Below, piece after piece: positions 32,844-43,801 of a stretch of DNA of 64,000 nucleotides. Position 1 is the first letter of the stretch, and each line of letters opens with the position of its first letter. Under the pieces are notes generated by a model, which was given only the letters and a program-made list of their open reading frames with translations, was not told where the DNA came from and did no database searches. The translations under genes were made by a program, and so were the position numbers. Source of the stretch: a bacterium (Candidatus Blackallbacteria) CG13_big_fil_rev_8_21_14_2_50_49_14 (GTDB lineage: Bacteria; Cyanobacteriota; Sericytochromatia; UBA7694); contig PFGG01000020.1 in NCBI GenBank assembly GCA_002783405.1, positions 57,106 to 121,105 of the forward strand. The letters run 5' to 3'.

Positions 32844-32959
32844 ATACACGGTTTTAGAACGCGATCCTGGAAACAATTTCAGCGTGCTCAGGGGCACACT
32901 CACCCGGACAAAAATCACATATAATGAACTCGATATCACGCTGGCCAGAGGAAATCTTC

Positions 32960-35578
32960 ATGAAAAATAGCTATCGCCCCCTTATGACTGCTCTTGCTGG
33001 AGCAGCAATCATGCTGACCACAGCCTGTCAGGACGGAAATTCATTGACTTCCAGTAGCAAAGGAGGCCTCAGTTTCAGTGTCGAGTGGCCTAAAAAAACG
33101 AGTTCAACAGGGTTCTCCCTCAAAGCCATTCCCGAAAACACCGAACAGATTCGTATCAGCATTGAAGGTGAAGGTCTGAAAACTCCCTTGATCACAATTC
33201 TGACGCGAGAGGCAGGAGAAATCCGTGACAGCGTGCGGATTGACGTTCCTGTTGGCAAAAAGGTCGTCAAGATCGAAGCGCTGGACAAAGCAGGGAAGGT
33301 TATAGCGATTGATGTACGCAGTGTAATTATCATGGGAGGACAGGTTCAAAGAATAGAAACCAATATTCAGCCCTTGGGCATATCCAGCCCAGAACCGAGC
33401 TTACAACCTACGCTCCCCGGCTCCACCCCCACCTCAGGCACGCCCACCAATCCAACCGCTCCGACAGGCTTACTGCCCATCCCGCAAAGCCCAACCACGC
33501 CAACGGACACCAGCAGCCCAACGGCTCCCACCCAGCAACCCGCATCCGCTCCGCCCAGTGCCCCCCCTCTGGTCACCAATCCTGTCCCGATCAATCCCCC
33601 ACTTACCGATACAACCACCACAACCAGCAGCAGTTCCTCATCAAGCTCCTCCAGCTCAAGCGTGGCGGATTCACCCGTTGTTCCCACCGTCAGCAGCTTT
33701 ACCCCCACCTCTGGCTTGGTCGGCGCCACAGTCACGCTGACAGGCACCAATTTCAACAAAGTCAGTGGCGTCGCTTTTAACGGCACCCCCGCCCTGTTCA
33801 CAATTGTCAGCGATACCCAAATCACCACAACCGTGCCCGCCAATGCCACCACAGGCACCATCAGCCTCAGTACGGGCTCTGCCAGTGCTTCAAGCGCAAC
33901 CTTTACAGTCAATACCCAGGTTGAGAACTTGAAAATTGCAGAGGTTTTTCCGGTCTATGACAAAGTCAGTGCTCAGTATATTGAGCTTAAAAATACGGGC
34001 ACAACGGCTGTCGACCCCAGTGGTTTAAGCCTCTTTTATACCGATAATACAGGCACCTTAAAACAGTTCAGCGTTCCCGTCACCTCGTCTGTCGCTGCGG
34101 GGGGAAGTCTGATTGTTTGGCTCAATCAAAATGGAACCAATACAGCCAGCAATATTTATACAGGCACCTTGGGTTACCCCCCTCTCAATTACAGTGCAAC
34201 CAGTGTTTCAGAGGTTTTTCTGTGCAAAACCAACCCCTGTACCAACACTTCAATCTTGAGTTATATGTCCTATGGAAATGTCGCAGCAGGAGCCAATGCC
34301 AGCCTCGCAACAGGCGCAACGCCCACTGCGCTCTGGACAGGCAATGCCTTAGACATCACCAATACCACAACGAATATCAGCACAGGAAATGTAGATCCAG
34401 GTGACAGCTCAGGCCTCACGGTGATCAATGGCACGGTCTTCGCGAACGGAAATTCAGTTGTGGTACATGATGCCCTGAGTGGAGCACGCTTTAGCACGAC
34501 CGTAACCAGCACACCAAGTTCCACTCAATTGCCCATCAATCCTCCCAAAGCCATCATCAGCAGCAGCAACAGCGGGGATGGTGCATTACAAGGGGCGATT
34601 GTGGTCGATGCCACCACGAATTTCGCCAGCAGCGCCAAGGTTAAAATTCGTGGTGAATTGCACCAAATTACGTCTTTAAACACCAACAGCATCATGCTGG
34701 AAGCTCCGGTCAAACGCGACGCAGATGCAGCCAATAAAGGCAGTGGCGTCGCCGATGCACAAAATACGACCAACAATATTATCGTACCGGCAGGAGCCCC
34801 CAGCACACCTGCCAACAATACCTTCTTTGTCAATGATCTGGTCAAACTGGAGGCAAAATCAATAAGCCAGCCAGGCAACGCTCAGATTCGCACAGTGACG
34901 GTGACTACTGCCAACGGCATCAATCTTGACAATCCCTTTGCTCTGATGAGCTTTTCAAGCAGCAATACCGGTTCCGGCAATACCGAAGTGGTCACCATGG
35001 CCAGTACCCTGCCCACCGGGTTATCTGCAACAGAACAATTTTGGGGCGGTCGTGACAATCAGATCTTCAGTTTTGTCTCTTCAGGAACACCGACTGCAAC
35101 AGATGTGAAATTCAATATTGATTTCGTCAACTGCACCGTAGCCACCAGCAATACTGGCAAGGGAGGAAGCACAGACCCTGTCCAAACAGATCCCTGCGCA
35201 GGGGGCAGTGTCAATATTCGTGTTGGCGACATCGTCAAAGTCAACGATGGTGCCACCCCCGTATTGCGTACAGTCAATGCTGTAACAGGCAACACGGGTT
35301 CGGGCTTTCAACTGAAATTCACAGTCCCCTTGACCAACCTGCCCAATACCGGAACGCCCGTCAAAGGTACCCCCCAAAATGGAGCAATCCACTATATCCC
35401 CTATACCATTACCACCCCAGCCATTAAAAAAGATGTCCTGATTCTCACCCCCCGCAGTGGAGATATCAAACTGGTACCGGTAGGCGGGACGGTAACCAAA
35501 AAACAGGCTTTTAAATTGGGAACCTGCGCATCAACACCGAATGCAGCCTGTTTTAACCCAGTAACACCCAGCCATTGA
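32960..35578 (+). CDS. Large lipoprotein with IPT/TIG and lamin-tail domains
   Basis: An 872-residue surface lipoprotein. The signal peptide ends MLTTAC (lipobox). Residues about 30-140 form a beta domain; about 145-240 is a Pro/Thr/Ser-rich linker with a polyserine run. Residues about 242-318 are an IPT/TIG Ig-like domain (PTVSSFTPTSGLVGATVTLTG). Residues about 323-450 look like a lamin-tail (LTD) domain (LKIAEVFPVYDKVSAQYIELKNTGTTAVDPSGLSLFY). The remaining 400 residues are beta-rich, with four Cys that may form disulfides. GAGGAAA precedes the ATG at 32960. Probably cell-surface adhesion or DNA/metal binding; not identified. Followed by a strong terminator. Confidence 0.82.
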   Translation: MKNSYRPLMTALAGAAIMLTTACQDGNSLTSSSKGGLSFSVEWPKKTSSTGFSLKAIPENTEQIRISIEGEGLKTPLITILTREAGEIRDSVRIDVPVGKKVVKIEALDKAGKVIAIDVRSVIIMGGQVQRIETNIQPLGISSPEPSLQPTLPGSTPTSGTPTNPTAPTGLLPIPQSPTTPTDTSSPTAPTQQPASAPPSAPPLVTNPVPINPPLTDTTTTTSSSSSSSSSSSSVADSPVVPTVSSFTPTSGLVGATVTLTGTNFNKVSGVAFNGTPALFTIVSDTQITTTVPANATTGTISLSTGSASASSATFTVNTQVENLKIAEVFPVYDKVSAQYIELKNTGTTAVDPSGLSLFYTDNTGTLKQFSVPVTSSVAAGGSLIVWLNQNGTNTASNIYTGTLGYPPLNYSATSVSEVFLCKTNPCTNTSILSYMSYGNVAAGANASLATGATPTALWTGNALDITNTTTNISTGNVDPGDSSGLTVINGTVFANGNSVVVHDALSGARFSTTVTSTPSSTQLPINPPKAIISSSNSGDGALQGAIVVDATTNFASSAKVKIRGELHQITSLNTNSIMLEAPVKRDADAANKGSGVADAQNTTNNIIVPAGAPSTPANNTFFVNDLVKLEAKSISQPGNAQIRTVTVTTANGINLDNPFALMSFSSSNTGSGNTEVVTMASTLPTGLSATEQFWGGRDNQIFSFVSSGTPTATDVKFNIDFVNCTVATSNTGKGGSTDPVQTDPCAGGSVNIRVGDIVKVNDGATPVLRTVNAVTGNTGSGFQLKFTVPLTNLPNTGTPVKGTPQNGAIHYIPYTITTPAIKKDVLILTPRSGDIKLVPVGGTVTKKQAFKLGTCASTPNAACFNPVTPSH

Positions 35579-36969: not shown

Positions 36970-37002
36970 AAGGCCCTGATGGAGCAAAACCGTCAGGGCC
37001 TT
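36970..37002 (+). terminator. Stem-loop after metK without U-tract
   Basis: AAGGCCCTGA (36970-36979) and TCAGGGCCTT (36993-37002) form a perfect 10-bp stem 24 bp past the metK stop. No T-run follows, so it may be a partial terminator. It separates metK from the RAMP genes. Confidence 0.55.
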
Positions 37003-37115: not shown

Positions 37116-37964
37116 ATGTCCGAGCAGCACACACTGCTCCTGCAAACCCTGACCAGCCTGCACGCAGGTTCAGGGAAAACACAGGCCACCCTTTTAAATT
37201 CACTCTTACGAGATTCAGACACCGGTCTGCCTCAGATTTCAGCATCAACCGTCAAGGGTGCTTTGCGCAAAAAAATACGCGACAATTTTTATCCCGAACT
37301 ACAAGCCCAGGAGAACTGGAAAAGCGCAGCAAATCAAGACTCACGCCTGATCAGTATTTTTGGCGTAAAAGAAGAACCTGAGTCGGCTGGAGTAGAATTT
37401 CAATCTGCACAACTATTAGCTCTGGCCTTACGCAGCGCCAAAAATATTTGGTGTCTGGTATGCTCTCCCTCAACCCTCCAGGCTTTTGCCCAGAGTTTGG
37501 GCCAGGAACTTCCCGCTTTGCCTGTTCCCGAAAAGAATCAGGTTTTCTGTGCTCAGAAAAGTCCTTTGTTGCTTGAGCCCAACAGTCTGGTAATTGAAGA
37601 TTTGGAGTTTCAGGTCAAAGGAGACTGGGCAGAAGGTTTGACCTGGTTAGAAAAAACACTCCCCGAAGGATCTGTCCGCACAGTGATGAACCGCATGGTA
37701 CTGGTCAGTGATCCGTGTTTAAAAATGCTTGCGCAAAGTAAAACTGAAATTATGGATTTTCCAGGCACCCAGAAACAGGCCCAAGAAGTTGAGTTTTTAC
37801 CCGCAGAAAGTATTCTGTACAGTCCCATTAAGACCGCAGAACACCACCCTGCACTCAAGAACCTATCAGAACATTGTCCTGCATATATCAGTTTGGGGGC
37901 CTATCAAACCCTGGGTAAAGGTCTTTGCGCCGTCACCCTGCTGAGCCCCCAAGGAGAAAATTAA
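37116..37964 (+). CDS. cmr4: Cmr4-like RAMP protein (type III-B CRISPR), catalytic Asp missing
   Basis: A 282-residue RAMP (Cas7-type) protein, the repeated backbone subunit of Cmr complexes in its family. It shows TLTSLHAGSG (residues 11-20), then DTGLPQISASTVKGALRKKI, the loop and helix that match TGFPxIPGSSLKGALR, and near the C-terminus the Gly-rich loop YISLGAYQTLGKGLCAV. In P. furiosus Cmr4 the RNA-cutting residue is Asp26, seven positions after GSG; here that position is Leu27, followed by Asn28, and the spacing to TGxP is identical. The subunit is thus probably unable to cut target RNA. RBS AAGGA 8 nt before the ATG. Two nt separate it from cmr5. Family call strong; loss of activity is inference. 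Confidence 0.88.
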   Translation: MSEQHTLLLQTLTSLHAGSGKTQATLLNSLLRDSDTGLPQISASTVKGALRKKIRDNFYPELQAQENWKSAANQDSRLISIFGVKEEPESAGVEFQSAQLLALALRSAKNIWCLVCSPSTLQAFAQSLGQELPALPVPEKNQVFCAQKSPLLLEPNSLVIEDLEFQVKGDWAEGLTWLEKTLPEGSVRTVMNRMVLVSDPCLKMLAQSKTEIMDFPGTQKQAQEVEFLPAESILYSPIKTAEHHPALKNLSEHCPAYISLGAYQTLGKGLCAVTLLSPQGEN

Positions 37965-37966
37965 CC

Positions 37967-38911
37967 ATGACACACACCGAACTTCCGCTGGAAGATAGCA
38001 ACCAAACTCAAGAACAGCCCCATTCTGAAACTTTGGAATCTTTAGAATCCAATCAGAATGCAATGCCCGCTCAAGCTGAAGTCAGCCAAGCTGAAGTCTC
38101 AGAAAGCGTGCAAACAGAGGCCGAAACAGCGACTTCAAAACAAAAACCAAACCGCTCAAAACACCGTCCCAATAAAAACCGCCCACCCGCTGCTGGCGCG
38201 AAGAAGCAAACACCTCCAGCCATGATTTCTTATCAAATCGGCGAAATCTTGAAACGCCTTCAGCAAAAACCTGGTATTTTACAAGCCTATCTTGAAGATG
38301 CCCGCCTCCTTTACCTGCAAATTCGCCAGTGGGGTTTGGGTTCAAGCCTTGCGCTATTGCTTTCAGACCCTCAAACCAAACGCAAACAACGCTTGTATTG
38401 GGATCTGTCCAAATGGCTCCTCAAAGAGCGGAAAATAAAAGGCAAAAACAATCGCAGTCTGATAGAAAGCGTAATCTATGGAGATTCTTTCTATTTGATG
38501 CGTGCCACTGAAGCCAGTCTGGATTTTCTGCAGGAAATTTTAGAAACCTCTGAACAGGACAGCTTGCGCGCAAAAACTTCAAAGCCACACAAACCCGTTC
38601 AAACCACTGAACCCGTTCAATCCAACGAACCTGTTCAATCCAACGAACCTGTTCAATCCAACGAACCCGTTCAATCCAACGAACCTGTTCAAGCCAACGA
38701 ACCCGTTCAAGCCAACGAACCTGTTCAAGCCAACGAACCTGTTCAATCCAACGAACCTGTTCAAACCAACGAACCTGTTCAAACCAACGAACCCGTTCAA
38801 GCCACTGAACCCGTTCAAACCAACGAACCTGTTCAAGCCAACGAACCCGTTCAATCCAACGAACCTGTTCAAACTGAAGAAGAATCCAGGAGTACCGTCA
38901 ACCATGCTTGA
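37967..38911 (+). CDS. cmr5: Cmr5-like small subunit with disordered N-terminus and hexapeptide-repeat tail
   Basis: A 314-residue protein. Residues 1-85 are acidic then Lys/Arg/Pro-rich and disordered. Residues about 88-185 match the helical Cmr5 core: EILKRLQQKPGILQAYLEDARLLYLQIRQWGLGSSLALLLSD, LYWDLSKWLLKE and FYLMRATEASLDFLQEI. Residues about 208-305 are about 16 copies of the hexapeptide (N/T)EPVQ(S/T/A), which is not part of any normal Cmr5 (usually 120-160 residues). Cmr5 proteins line the inner face of the Cmr filament. RBS AAGGAG. Its end overlaps the next gene by 8 nt. Confidence 0.8.
   Translation: MTHTELPLEDSNQTQEQPHSETLESLESNQNAMPAQAEVSQAEVSESVQTEAETATSKQKPNRSKHRPNKNRPPAAGAKKQTPPAMISYQIGEILKRLQQKPGILQAYLEDARLLYLQIRQWGLGSSLALLLSDPQTKRKQRLYWDLSKWLLKERKIKGKNNRSLIESVIYGDSFYLMRATEASLDFLQEILETSEQDSLRAKTSKPHKPVQTTEPVQSNEPVQSNEPVQSNEPVQSNEPVQANEPVQANEPVQANEPVQSNEPVQTNEPVQTNEPVQATEPVQTNEPVQANEPVQSNEPVQTEEESRSTVNHA
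38594..38881 (+). repeat. 18-bp tandem repeat array in the Cmr5 gene
   Basis: About sixteen units of the 18-bp sequence CCYGTTCAAxCCAACGAA encode EPVQxN. Units vary mainly at one codon (TCC, ACC, GCC: Ser, Thr, Ala) and at one silent C/T, in a patchy order that suggests repeated slippage or unequal exchange. There are no spacers, so it is not a CRISPR array. Confidence 0.95.
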
Positions 38912-41489
38912 AGATCAAGACACACTTACCACAGAAACCCAGGAAGCAACTTCAAGTTTAAGCCCAGAAATGCCTGCAAGTGAGGCACAAGCGCCTCTTG
39001 AAGCAGCACCTGAATCAAAACCCGAACATGCTGAAGAACAGAAGCCCTTGCCCACAGCACCGGTAAGAACCTTGCCTTTTATCGCACTCCCGATCAGCAC
39101 CAGCCAATTGCTCAAGAAAAAAGGCTGTACACATCCCGGCCTGCAAGCAGGAGCCCATGCCAGCCTCTTGACCATGGTAAACCGCAAACTGGAATTTGAT
39201 TCGAATCCTGAGCAACTTAAAAAAATCTGGCAAAAAACAGCGCACACGCTGAACAATACCCCCGAACTGAAACAGGAATGGGAAACCCAGAAGCAAAAAC
39301 GTCAAACCGTATTGACCGCACTGAATGCGCGTGTTTTTACACTGCAGACGCAATCCTCTCTTTGGGTTGAAACCCGCCAAGCCTTGGGGCAAACGGGTTT
39401 GGATCTCCATCCACTCTATGGATTTCCCTATTTGCCTTCGGCCCGCCTCAAAGGCCTCATTCGGCGTTATGCAGAAACCCATTGGCTGCCTCAGCAAGCA
39501 AATCAGGCAGAAGCCCAAGCCCAAATCCAGTCACTTTTAGGGCATCCCACCCGCAAAGGGGGCGACTCAGGCAGTCTGGTCATTCATGATGCTTGGCCAG
39601 AAAACTGGCCCAACGTTCAAACGGATCTTAGCGCCTGTCATCACCGTCCCTATTATCAGCGCAGAGACGCTGCCGGAGACTGGCAAACACCTGATCCCCG
39701 CTACTTCCTCAGTTTAAGAGGAGGAGCCCGTTTCAGTTTCGCACTCTCCAGCCATCGCCCAGATCAAACAGAGCATGTGGAATTGGCCGAAACCTGGCTA
39801 AAAGAAGCCTTAAGTGTTGTGGGTTATGGAAGTGGCAGCGCTTCAGGTTATGGGCTGATGAAAGCTGCTGGCAGCACACCCTCAGAAGCTCAGGGAACCC
39901 AGTTCAGCACACAGCTCAGTCTGAATACACCTGGTTTTTACCGTGGAAGTTCAGCCCGCTCTGAAGACTGTCAATTGCGTCCCTCCAGTCTGCGTGGACT
40001 TTTGCGTTGGTGGTGGCGCTCCCTTCACAGTGGCTTCCTTCCCCAACGCTCCTTGCTTCTGCTCGAAAACGCACTCTGGGGAAACAGAGGCAAAAAAGCA
40101 GCCATTCGCCTGGAAATCGTTCCAACGGGCCCCAGTCAGGCCCGGCGCTTTCATGAACATGATTTGGTGCGCCAGCTTCCTGCACCTGATCACCCCAAAA
40201 CAAAACCAGGCCTGAGCTATCTGACCTATGGCACGGGAGAACATCAGGAACGGGCCTATTATTTGGCTGCTGGAACCCAGTGGCAAATAAAACTGAGCTG
40301 CGATACCGCCTATTTATTGGGCAATGCCGAAAAACACAAGCTTCAGATTCCCGCTGAAATGGTTCTGGAACAGGCCAAAGCGGCTCTTTGGCTGCTCAGT
40401 CACTATGGCGGCAGTGGACAAAGAATGCGCAAAGGCTTGGGAAACTTTCAAACTCCCATTGAATTGAATGAGTCGCTCAACCATTGGTTAGAAAACGCTG
40501 AACAATTGCGTGAACACTGCGGGTTCAATACGCAGTTTCAGGAGGAACAGTGTGAAACACCTTCTTTGGTTCAAAGAATTGAACCTGAAGAGCTGCTTAC
40601 CCCCTGGAAAAACGAATGGTTTGCCTTGCATCAATTGGGCATTGCCTACCAAAGTTTCATGCAAAAACACAAACACCAGGCGCTCAAACAAGGTCTGGGA
40701 CTGCCACGCATGATCGGGGAACCCGTACAGGGTGAATTTACAGCCCTCGCTCCGGTTAAAGAACGCCATGCTTCTCCTCTGTTTATGCATTTTTCACGGC
40801 AGGCCGAAACCAACCGTTTGATCCTGCGTCTGGTGGCCTTTCCAAGTAAACATCTGCCTGACACGGCCAGCAGCCAAAAGCTTCTGGAAGAATTCTGTCA
40901 GCATATTCTGCATGAAATGCGCCAACAAATCGAAACCTGGCCCTTAGAGCCCGAACTGCGTCTCAATCTTGATGAACGCAGAAGCCCAAGCGGGAGAAAA
41001 GATCTGCGTCCGGCAAGAAGGCCAAGTTTTACAAAACCCAGTGGCGAAAGCGGCGAATCAAGCGAAAACCGGCCCCCGCGTCGTGAGTTTAAACCCAGAC
41101 TCCCACGTGCTGAAGGCAGTGAAGCTGCGCCACGTCGTTTTGCCCGCCCTGAGCGCTCAGATGATAAGCCTTTCCGTCCCCGGAAAGACATGCCCCTCAA
41201 ACCCACACGACCAGCAGCACCCAAACCCCTTCAAGCTGGCGACCGGGTCGAAGCCACCCTGCTTGAAGAGCGCACGAAAAAAGGGGGGTGGAAAGCTCTG
41301 CATGGCAAATCCAAACTCAGTGGCCCGATTGTCAATTCAGGCCTGGTACCTGGCGAATCAGGTGTTGGCGATGCCATTACCTTGATCGTGCATTCAGTCA
41401 ATCGCTTTGAAATGGCTTTCCGCGTGCCCACAGCAGCTGATGATGCCGCTGAAAAGGGCAAGAAAAAGAAAGTCCGTTCGGAGAGCTGA
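38904..41489 (+). CDS. Cmr6-Cmr1 fusion RAMP protein with C-terminal OB/TRAM-like domain
   Basis: An 861-residue multi-domain protein. Residues 1-55 are acidic and disordered. About 60-325 match Cmr6: LWVETRQALGQTGLDLHPLYGFPYLPSARLKGLIRRYAE and IHDAWP, ending GYGSGSASGYGLM. About 335-680 match Cmr1: TPGFYRGSSARSEDCQLRPSSLRGLLRWWWRSLHS, then GGSGQRMRKGLGNF and ERHASPLFMHF. About 690-785 is an Arg/Pro/Ser-rich basic linker. About 785-850 (GDRVEATLLEERTKKGGWKA to NRFEMAFRV) resembles an OB or TRAM-type RNA-binding domain. In Cmr complexes Cmr1 and Cmr6 cap the crRNA 3' end; a single chain would fix their ratio. The fusion and C-terminal domain are unusual. Confidence 0.85.
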   Translation: MLEDQDTLTTETQEATSSLSPEMPASEAQAPLEAAPESKPEHAEEQKPLPTAPVRTLPFIALPISTSQLLKKKGCTHPGLQAGAHASLLTMVNRKLEFDSNPEQLKKIWQKTAHTLNNTPELKQEWETQKQKRQTVLTALNARVFTLQTQSSLWVETRQALGQTGLDLHPLYGFPYLPSARLKGLIRRYAETHWLPQQANQAEAQAQIQSLLGHPTRKGGDSGSLVIHDAWPENWPNVQTDLSACHHRPYYQRRDAAGDWQTPDPRYFLSLRGGARFSFALSSHRPDQTEHVELAETWLKEALSVVGYGSGSASGYGLMKAAGSTPSEAQGTQFSTQLSLNTPGFYRGSSARSEDCQLRPSSLRGLLRWWWRSLHSGFLPQRSLLLLENALWGNRGKKAAIRLEIVPTGPSQARRFHEHDLVRQLPAPDHPKTKPGLSYLTYGTGEHQERAYYLAAGTQWQIKLSCDTAYLLGNAEKHKLQIPAEMVLEQAKAALWLLSHYGGSGQRMRKGLGNFQTPIELNESLNHWLENAEQLREHCGFNTQFQEEQCETPSLVQRIEPEELLTPWKNEWFALHQLGIAYQSFMQKHKHQALKQGLGLPRMIGEPVQGEFTALAPVKERHASPLFMHFSRQAETNRLILRLVAFPSKHLPDTASSQKLLEEFCQHILHEMRQQIETWPLEPELRLNLDERRSPSGRKDLRPARRPSFTKPSGESGESSENRPPRREFKPRLPRAEGSEAAPRRFARPERSDDKPFRPRKDMPLKPTRPAAPKPLQAGDRVEATLLEERTKKGGWKALHGKSKLSGPIVNSGLVPGESGVGDAITLIVHSVNRFEMAFRVPTAADDAAEKGKKKKVRSES

Positions 41490-42271: not shown

Positions 42272-42754
42272 ATGCAAGTAAACCAACCTCCCAATCCCCA
42301 AGAATGGCTGAAAGGTATCACCGCCCGTCCTGCCCAAGGTATTCCCGAAGCCCCCCCTGGTGCTTCCCCTCCTGCAGCAGAAGCCCCCCCTACCCTGTCT
42401 AAGGACCATCAAAAAATCAGGATCGGCATGGACAAAGGGAGTGGAATCTTCAAAATCTTCGAATCCAATCCCCGTGAAACCATCGATCAATTGCGCAATG
42501 CCAGAGGGCCTGCGCGTGATCAACTGCTCCTGGGTTTTCAAAAAGAACTCGATCAGATGGATAAAAAAGAACTGGCCTTTGCCCGCAACTATCTGATTGA
42601 TCTAATGGCCTCTCCCGATAATAAAGACGATCAGTTTTTGGGTGTCTTACTTAAAACCGTCAATCGCGAACTGGATTCACGCCCAGATGTAGAGTTCAAC
42701 CCTATTCCACGTCCGCTCAAACCAACGCATCCCCCAGATTTTCGTCTGGACTAA
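42272..42754 (+). CDS. Protein of unknown function
   Basis: A 160-residue soluble protein with AAGGAG before its ATG. The first 42 residues are Pro/Ala-rich and disordered. Residues about 65-140 are helical and charged (RDQLLLGFQKELDQMDKKELAFARNYLIDLMASPDN), followed by a Pro-rich tail. No family recognised. It could be a small adaptor. Converges on thpR, overlapping its stop by 4 nt. Confidence 0.75.
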   Translation: MQVNQPPNPQEWLKGITARPAQGIPEAPPGASPPAAEAPPTLSKDHQKIRIGMDKGSGIFKIFESNPRETIDQLRNARGPARDQLLLGFQKELDQMDKKELAFARNYLIDLMASPDNKDDQFLGVLLKTVNRELDSRPDVEFNPIPRPLKPTHPPDFRLD

Positions 42755-43332
42755 CCCAGTCTAAATCTGTGCAAACAGGTATAACGGGAACCCTCTGATG
42801 ATAATTCTGATTGCAGCAATTCAATCTGGCCAGCCTCCCAAACAGAGGCTGGTCTTTCGCTTGAAAAAAATGCAGGCAAGCGATACGGAGCTTCTAATTT
42901 TTGGCGAATTCGCCCCAAGGTCAGATGGGGGTGATAGGCTCTTTTTTCACGGGCAAACCCCAAAGTTTCAAGAACCTTTTCCAGTTCTTTATGCATAGCC
43001 AAGAGTTCCACTTCAGGTGTAAGCCCCCAAAAGACAACCTGTGCTGATTCAGGTTTAGGAAAAACACCGGGTTCAGATAAATTCAATCCCAAGGGCTGAA
43101 ACTGGGCAAACACGCGCTCAAGTTTGGGAACCATGCGCTGCATTCGATTCAAAGAAGTATCACCTAAAAATTTGAGAGTGAGATGCATTTGCACCGGGCG
43201 CACCCATGAAGTGCGTATACCGGGGTTCAAAGATTTTAAAAGCGCTTGAGCAGCAAGAGCCTGCTCAAGCAATTCCTCAGGCAAAGGAATTCCCAAAAAA
43301 AGACGTAAAAGCGTTTGCTTATCAGGTGGCAT
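42751..43332 (-). CDS. thpR: RNA 2',3'-cyclic phosphodiesterase (2H family)
   Basis: A 193-residue 2H phosphoesterase. Two HxT(S)x motifs form the active site: HLTLKFLG and HPHLTLGRI. The N-terminus LRLFLGIPLPEELLEQ is family-typical. ThpR opens 2',3'-cyclic phosphates at RNA 3' ends and was first described as a 2'-5' RNA ligase. Start ATG at 43332, overlapping the preceding gene by 11 nt; a longer frame into that gene is not supported. Last gene of a three-gene minus-strand operon. Confidence 0.92.
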   Translation of the reverse strand: MPPDKQTLLRLFLGIPLPEELLEQALAAQALLKSLNPGIRTSWVRPVQMHLTLKFLGDTSLNRMQRMVPKLERVFAQFQPLGLNLSEPGVFPKPESAQVVFWGLTPEVELLAMHKELEKVLETLGFAREKRAYHPHLTLGRIRQKLEAPYRLPAFFSSERPASVWEAGQIELLQSELSSEGSRYTCLHRFRLG

Positions 43333-43801
43333 ATTTGATGCGCTGATTGGCTCCACGCATCCGACGGCTGAGAATTTCTGAAACCCCAAACATAAATTTT
43401 GCGGCAGTGGTGGGGTCTTTCTGCAACATATCCTCATAATCATCGCGGGTCAGCCGAAACACCTCACCAGCCTCACGGGCCGTGATAGAAGCAGAACGGG
43501 GTTGACGATCCAAAAACGACATTTCCCCAAAGATCAAACCCGGACCGGCCACAAAAAAGGTTAAATCTTCGCCACTGCGGCTGGTAGAAGAAACCTGAAA
43601 GGCGCCCTGAATAATCACGTAAAGATGTTCCTCTTCATCGCCTTCACTGAAAACCAGATCTTCGGGTTCATATTTCAGAATATCTGCGCGCTTCATCACT
43701 TCAAAGATTTCACGTTCACTCATCTGAGAAAAGATTTTGAGCGATTTCAAATCTTGAAGTTTTTGCAGGATCAGTTGTTTTTGCTGTTCATCGATGCTCA
43801 T
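43322..43801 (-). CDS. Cyclic-nucleotide-binding domain protein without HTH
   Basis: A 159-residue protein consisting of a single cNMP-binding (CAP_ED) domain: LKIFSQMSEREIFEVMKR, FSEGDEEEHLYVIIQGAFQVS, then the phosphate-binding cassette GLIFGEMSFLDRQPRSASITA. The GE...PRSAS pattern keeps the Glu and Arg that bind cAMP/cGMP. No DNA-binding domain follows, so it is not a Crp-type regulator by itself; it may gate or control a partner. It overlaps the upstream gene as ATGA and thpR by 11 nt. Confidence 0.9.
   Translation of the reverse strand: MSIDEQQKQLILQKLQDLKSLKIFSQMSEREIFEVMKRADILKYEPEDLVFSEGDEEEHLYVIIQGAFQVSSTSRSGEDLTFFVAGPGLIFGEMSFLDRQPRSASITAREAGEVFRLTRDDYEDMLQKDPTTAAKFMFGVSEILSRRMRGANQRIKYAT

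Follow-up and report, generated by a model that had tools for sequence, protein, structure and literature searches.

The stretch of DNA analysed here (64,000 nucleotides, C20:57106-121105, called the window below) belongs to G000, a metagenome-assembled genome (MAG; 5.65 Mb, 84 contigs, 96% complete) of the Sericytochromatia, a class of non-photosynthetic bacteria within the Cyanobacteriota/Melainabacteria group. Positions 37116-41489 of the window hold cmr4, cmr5 and a Cmr6-Cmr1 fusion gene, related to subunits of the type III-B (Cmr) effector complex of the clustered regularly interspaced short palindromic repeats (CRISPR) systems, and there is no adjoining cas10, cmr3, cas1/2 or array. The Cas10-Cmr3 end of the complex, with signalling, DNase and 5'-handle recognition, is gone; what remains is the Cmr4-Cmr5 backbone together with the Cmr6-Cmr1-OB end. 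We put the probability at about one half that this orphan cluster encodes a complex that descends from a type III-B effector, has been reduced and exapted, and binds RNA without cutting or signalling. Exaptation of a reduced III-B complex is the probable course of events. The more specific proposal of a domesticated, guide-less Cmr, in which an RNA-binding filament and an RNA-end cap serve an endogenous RNA function with no role in adaptive immunity, is put forward more tentatively. The genes and the parts of the fusion are as follows.

37116..37964, + strand: cmr4-like gene (backbone, Cas7 family), identified by profile matches, a fold match and residue mapping
37967..38911, + strand: cmr5-like gene (small subunit, Cas11) with disordered tails, identified by a profile match
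38904..41489, + strand: Cmr6-Cmr1 fusion gene, 861 aa, identified by profile and structure matches
39201..39872, + strand: Cmr6 domain, residues ~100-323
39891..40973, + strand: Cmr1 domain, residues ~330-690, in which W369/W370 and R509 align with W38/W39 and R154 of Pyrococcus furiosus
40974..41228, + strand: arginine-rich disordered linker, expanded in orphans (model pLDDT <50)
41229..41447, + strand: C-terminal five-strand OB/cold-shock-like domain (model pLDDT ~80-96)

An earlier note on this DNA had named the same three genes, and profile matches confirm them. Cmr4 is recovered by the PADLOC Cmr4 model (3e-25) and, with 77 bits, by TIGR02580; the latter score is under the NCBIfam cut-off of 87, so that the protein has to be regarded as diverged. 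Its AlphaFold model matches solved Cmr4 chains in a fold search (E 1.9e-16). Cmr5 scores 33.5 bits against PF09701 (cut-off 21). The fusion exceeds the cut-offs of both TIGR01898 (Cmr6, 76 bits) and TIGR01894 (Cmr1, 36 bits), and its predicted structure matches Cmr6 and Cmr1 structures in the fold search. Homologues of the type III-B subunits Cmr4, Cmr5, Cmr6 and Cmr1 are all present in the cluster. The genes had also been described as tightly linked and equipped with their own ribosome binding sites, and this holds: cmr4 and cmr5 are separated by 2 nt, cmr5 and the fusion gene overlap by 8 nt, and a Shine-Dalgarno-like sequence lies 5' of each start.

The absence of Cas10 and Cmr3, claimed before for the surroundings of the cluster, is borne out by profile searches and extends to the genome. 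In G000, TIGR02577, TIGR02578 and PF22335 gave no real match to Cas10. The protein with the best PF22335 match (L004) was rejected as a candidate, since its sequence reads as a GGDEF protein. The best Cmr3 match to PF09700 had E 0.6 and contained an internal stop. Nothing above cut-off was found with TIGR02577, TIGR02578 or PF09700 in three related genomes that carry the same cluster (G015, G014 and G017). In these and in G000, the CARF family model TIGR02221 found no match, and the RAMP-superfamily matches are solely the three domains of this cluster (Cmr4, Cmr6 and Cmr1). The same Cas10 and Cmr3 models detect complete loci in G016 and G011, and therefore work in Sericytochromatia. It is highly unlikely that the system is an ordinary III-B complex with its cas10 and cmr3 in an unassembled part of the genome. 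G000 is indeed a MAG in many contigs, but the two genes are absent from four genomes (G000, G015, G014 and G017, with a completeness of 96, 94, 83 and 73%), and Cmr4 is catalytically disabled in all five orphans. The idea of the earlier note that the missing subunits are encoded elsewhere in the genome is thus excluded within the limits of a MAG that is 96% complete, and is also disfavoured by the recurrence of the same trio without Cas10 and Cmr3 in five genomes of four genera.

All five genomes of the Sericytochromatia family to which G000 belongs carry the trio, and in four of them it is the sole RAMP locus. As far as the contigs allow, the cmr4-cmr5-fusion unit is intact in every case, with open frames and unchanged order; in G014 and G017 the contig stops inside the fusion gene or at its edge, and one side of the locus is unseen there. 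The comparison of gene neighbourhoods suggested by the earlier note gave conserved linkage of the trio and different neighbours between genera, namely metK in the case of G000 and G015, protease and photolyase genes in G016, and efflux genes in G017 (names read from sequence). As the neighbours differ, and as metK of G016 is located on a different contig from the orphan trio, the trio is kept as a unit and not as part of a metK neighbourhood. A decaying, functionless remnant of a III-B locus would also have lost cas10, cmr3 and catalytic residues, and Cmr4 and Cmr5 do diverge fast. However, open frames in five genomes and four genera argue against decay, as do the unchanged gene order and the conservation of the RNA-binding residues and the OB domain, so that this explanation is very improbable.

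The ancestor of the orphans can be identified. G016 is the one family genome that contains both an orphan (L041) and a complete III-B system (L044), the latter with cas10 (GGDD motif), cmr3, cmr4, cmr5 and a Cmr6-Cmr1-OB fusion, followed by genes of the CARF/ring-nuclease type. Maximum-likelihood trees group the five orphans into a single clade, with support of 100/99 for Cmr4 and 98/88 for the fusion, and the III-B system of G016 is its sister (94/90 and 97/91, respectively). The trees show a single origin of the orphans from III-B. The complete locus resembles the orphan in Cmr4, Cmr5, Cmr6 and Cmr1, in gene order, in the fusion and in the C-terminal domain. It differs from the orphan, which lacks Cas10, Cmr3 and the CARF genes, has lost the catalytic residues of Cmr4 and has gained long disordered tails. 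The coexistence in G016 of proteins related at 24-35% identity could also mean that the orphan is a regulator, an inhibitor or a spare part of a true III-B system, whose subunits mix or compete with canonical Cmr. This is distinctly improbable, because four of the five genomes carry the orphan but no III-B system at all.

The Cmr6-Cmr1 fusion is not the novelty. Most of the matching cyanobacterial III-B loci carry such a fusion (~650 aa), and it has therefore been inherited from III-B. Of the 20 cyanobacterial III-B loci that were fetched, 19 have cas10 and cmr3, and the remaining one is cut by a contig end. The new element is the loss of Cas10 and Cmr3. Elsewhere in the class the fusion occurs in no genome; the sole further matches, to the ordinary Cas10 loci of G011, concern an unfused Cmr6. 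The cyanobacterial systems are like the orphan in the fusion and in a Cmr4 without D26, but unlike it they possess cas10 and cmr3, keep E227, and show no match to the C-terminal OB-like domain.

In P. furiosus Cmr4, residues H15, D26 and E227 have been proposed to cut the target RNA, and mutation of D26 abolishes cleavage but does not prevent assembly (PMC5965380). In our residue mapping, D26 of the G016 III-B Cmr4 aligns with P. furiosus D26, and its E251 with E227. The D26 equivalent is replaced or deleted in all five orphan Cmr4s, and the H15 equivalent is kept. The alignment in the shortened loop is uncertain by 1-2 residues, but no orphan has an aligned aspartate or a DLPxQRE motif. Loss of the aspartate is not specific to orphans, since cyanobacterial III-B Cmr4s also lack D26. 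The additional loss of E227 is confined to the orphans in this sample: the glutamate is replaced in 5/5 of them (by V, V, L, I and R) and kept in 23/23 Cmr4s from III-B loci. The D26-less cyanobacterial Cmr4s (motif EGNLxGIARE; L086-L104) come from loci with Cas10 and a Cmr6-Cmr1 fusion, and the sequences suggest that the backbone in these systems may not cut target RNA, or may not do so in the usual way.

The residues expected to contact RNA have had a different fate. W38, W39 and R154 of Cmr1 bind the 3' region of the CRISPR RNA (crRNA; PMC5965380), and their equivalents W369, W370 and R509 are retained in all five orphans. In the Cmr4 backbone, R50 is invariant among the orphans, K46 is K, K, M, M or R, and most of the G-rich loop is retained. 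Judged by these residues, the known catalysis of the orphan complex is gone and its grip on the RNA end is kept. A derived RAMP complex, the other possibility raised in the earlier note, thus finds support in the single III-B origin, the lost catalytic residues and the retained RNA-binding residues. The loss of the Cmr4 catalytic residues, the C-terminal OB-like domain and the commonness of the fusion in cyanobacterial III-B had not been part of that description.

The orphans have gained long, charged and disordered tails. The linker before the C-terminal domain comprises 89-128 aa with 25-37 K/R in the four orphans in which it can be read, versus 34 aa with 6 K/R in the III-B fusion, and the N-terminal tails of Cmr5 comprise 84-126 aa, versus 10 aa in III-B. 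The C-terminal domain is the best conserved part between G000 and G015 (81% identity, versus 62-68% for Cmr6/Cmr1 and 47% for the linker), and is also present in the Cas10-bearing III-B fusion of G016. Its model is confident and shows five strands whose order agrees with an OB or cold-shock fold, and we have named the predicted domain OB/cold-shock-like from this strand order. It has no family match and no sequence match in the Protein Data Bank (PDB), and a fold search with the whole fusion returned no OB-fold protein among the 50 matches listed. The ratio of nonsynonymous to synonymous change (pN/pS) is 0.08 for metK and rises from 0.36 in the fusion to 0.43 in Cmr4 and 0.65 in Cmr5 (mostly tails); as synonymous sites are saturated even between G000 and G015, the values allow relative statements only.

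It is tempting to speculate how such a complex might work. Cmr4 and Cmr5 would still assemble along single-stranded RNA into a short helical filament. The Cmr6-Cmr1-OB fusion would cap this filament and grip the RNA via the conserved Trp-Trp/Arg groove of Cmr1, which in canonical Cmr holds the crRNA 3' region. In view of the lack of Cmr3 for a repeat-derived 5' handle and of an array of its own, the bound RNA would most likely be an endogenous cellular RNA and not a crRNA. As there is no Cas10 and no ruler RNase, the complex would act by binding alone, and would protect, sequester or silence its RNA. The new acidic and arginine-rich tails may perhaps promote assemblies.

The alternative source of RNA would be the crRNAs of other CRISPR systems in the host. 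Arrays were sought only in the fetched stretches (near cas genes and at the orphan loci). The window contains no CRISPR array and no Rfam family, as the earlier note had said with respect to arrays, but the statement does not carry over to the genome: contig C64 of G000 (L047:9070-19888) encodes a complete type I-F system (Cas1f, Cas2-3, Csy1-4) with an array of 44 repeats (repeat GTTCACTGCCGCACAGGCAGCTTAGAAA). G015 has two further CRISPR-Cas loci (L049 and L050, whose arrays number 50 and 23 repeats when counted by exact words), of which L050 has a type I-E look. An orphan complex that loads such crRNAs (from I-F in G000) and blocks complementary RNAs by binding would be a guide-borrowing silencer. 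The full I-F system of G000 provides Cas6f together with the array, type III loci are often array-less and thought to rely on Cas6 and crRNAs supplied in trans (PMC12669027), and the RNA-binding residues of Cmr1 are intact. Nevertheless, we consider this explanation unlikely, although it deserves attention, because there is no Cmr3 or Cas5 to hold the handle. Moreover, the orphan is unchanged across hosts with differing CRISPR types (I-F in G000, other arrays in G015, III-B in G016), and is thus not tied to one array type; it also occurs in two, albeit incomplete, genomes without a Cas1 match. Comparison of the I-F repeat with the window gave a best match no better than that of shuffled sequence, so there is no relic of this repeat above chance, and the I-F spacers share no 16-mer with the window.

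Several observations weigh against the interpretation as an exapted RNA-binding complex. At least two of the five genomes with an orphan also offer crRNAs from other arrays, and no conserved non-coding RNA was found beside the cluster, either by comparison with G015 or with Rfam. The equivalents of the thumb residues W197 and E199 of Sulfolobus islandicus Cmr4 are lost in the orphans. In that protein, changes in the thumb, which is important for stability, prevented purification of the complex (PMC9368842); with the W197 equivalent lost, the orphan filament may pack differently from Cmr. Constraint is only moderate, as the pN/pS values exceed that of metK and the Cmr4 branches are long. Finally, co-assembly, RNA binding and the choice of endogenous RNA are all inferred steps.

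Array-less derivatives of CRISPR systems are already known, and the III-B-derived variant described here is new among systems such as HRAMP of haloarchaea and ARAMP of Asgard archaea. Like the orphan, these are RAMP genes without an array, each in one lineage, with a predicted non-canonical function, but they consist of Cas5 and Cas7 homologues plus nucleases, and most ARAMPs also have Cas1 (PMC8730458, PMC12669027). The orphan shares with them RAMP genes without array or adaptation genes at the locus. It differs in that no Cas5 was found beside the Cas7 homologues (a very diverged Cas5 could escape the search), in the apparent lack of a linked nuclease of the HNH or PD-(D/E)xK type, and in its clear III-B origin, whereas HRAMP is too diverged to be traced to a subtype. 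Array-less HRAMPs and ARAMPs usually carry nucleases (PMC12669027, PMC8730458), and the orphan could by analogy still act in defence, with an unlinked nuclease or other protein in place of Cas10. We regard this as quite unlikely, since no gene besides the trio is conserved at the cluster across genera, with the reservation that one side of the locus is unseen in G014 and G017 and that not all neighbours were profile-searched.

Types III-E, III-I (Cas7-11), III-G and III-H resemble the orphan in being reduced type III systems, and III-E also lacks cas10 (PMC12669027). III-E and III-I, which descend from III-D, each consist of one long RNA-cutting effector. The orphan is not one effector of fused Cas7/Cas11 domains but consists of three separate genes, with Cmr6 and Cmr1 alone fused. 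III-G and III-H have a dead cyclase and, like the orphan, a Cas7 without the conserved catalytic aspartates (PMC12669027), but retain Cas10 with its HD nuclease; no Cas10 of this kind, with inactive cyclase and active HD, was found by the three models used. A Cmr assembly described as free of guide RNA has also been solved, DtCmr (PDB 9arw and related entries), and its Cmr4 ranks with the best matches in both fold and sequence. In contrast to the orphan, DtCmr has chains for Cas10 and Cmr3, and its Cmr4 is of the catalytic type (VDLPIQRE).

The trio has long been retained although every known cutting and signalling part was lost, which suggests a new role for the RNA-binding complex that is left. 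As G016 holds both the parent-type III-B system and the reduced form, one can trace residue by residue how Cas10, Cmr3 and catalysis were lost. The case raises the question of what a Cmr complex does with RNA once cutting and signalling are both lost. Should the orphan complex indeed hold RNAs of the cell, it would clearly exemplify the conversion of a class 1 effector into RNA-binding machinery with no immune function. Within the literature that was searched, no earlier description of the cluster was found. Outside the phylum, a close-relative scan covered 84,980 genomes and was complemented by viral and plasmid searches, which gave nothing related in viral contigs and, on plasmids, no more than ordinary cmr6. 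Similar orphans may exist in other phyla.

Two further elements belong to the cluster and its upstream flank.

36970..37002, + strand: hairpin in the metK-cmr4 interval, with arms AAGGCCCTGA / TCAGGGCCTT at 36970-36979/36993-37002, read directly in the sequence
38592..38872, + strand: 18-bp tandem repeat x15.6 in cmr5, encoding a low-complexity EPVQ(S/T/A)N tail

The hairpin is the stem-loop that the earlier note had placed ahead of the cluster, and probably marks the end of metK. A guide RNA between metK and cmr4 was considered and rejected, as the interval has no Rfam match; since it is only weakly similar to that of the sister genome G015, there is no sign of a conserved guide RNA there. 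The 18-bp repeat is not a CRISPR array; it codes for the low-complexity tail of Cmr5. The opposite strand at 38592-38872 is also an open frame (108 aa), as an effect of the repeat.

Downstream of the cluster, the minus strand at 42751-43801 encodes a likely 2H phosphoesterase (LigT/ThpR-like, named by sequence alone) beside a CRP-like cyclic-nucleotide-binding protein, a pair that adjoins the trio in G000 and G015 only. At 32924-35578, the window encodes a large protein that looks secreted, contains a serine run and an IPT/TIG-like segment, and is syntenic in G015.

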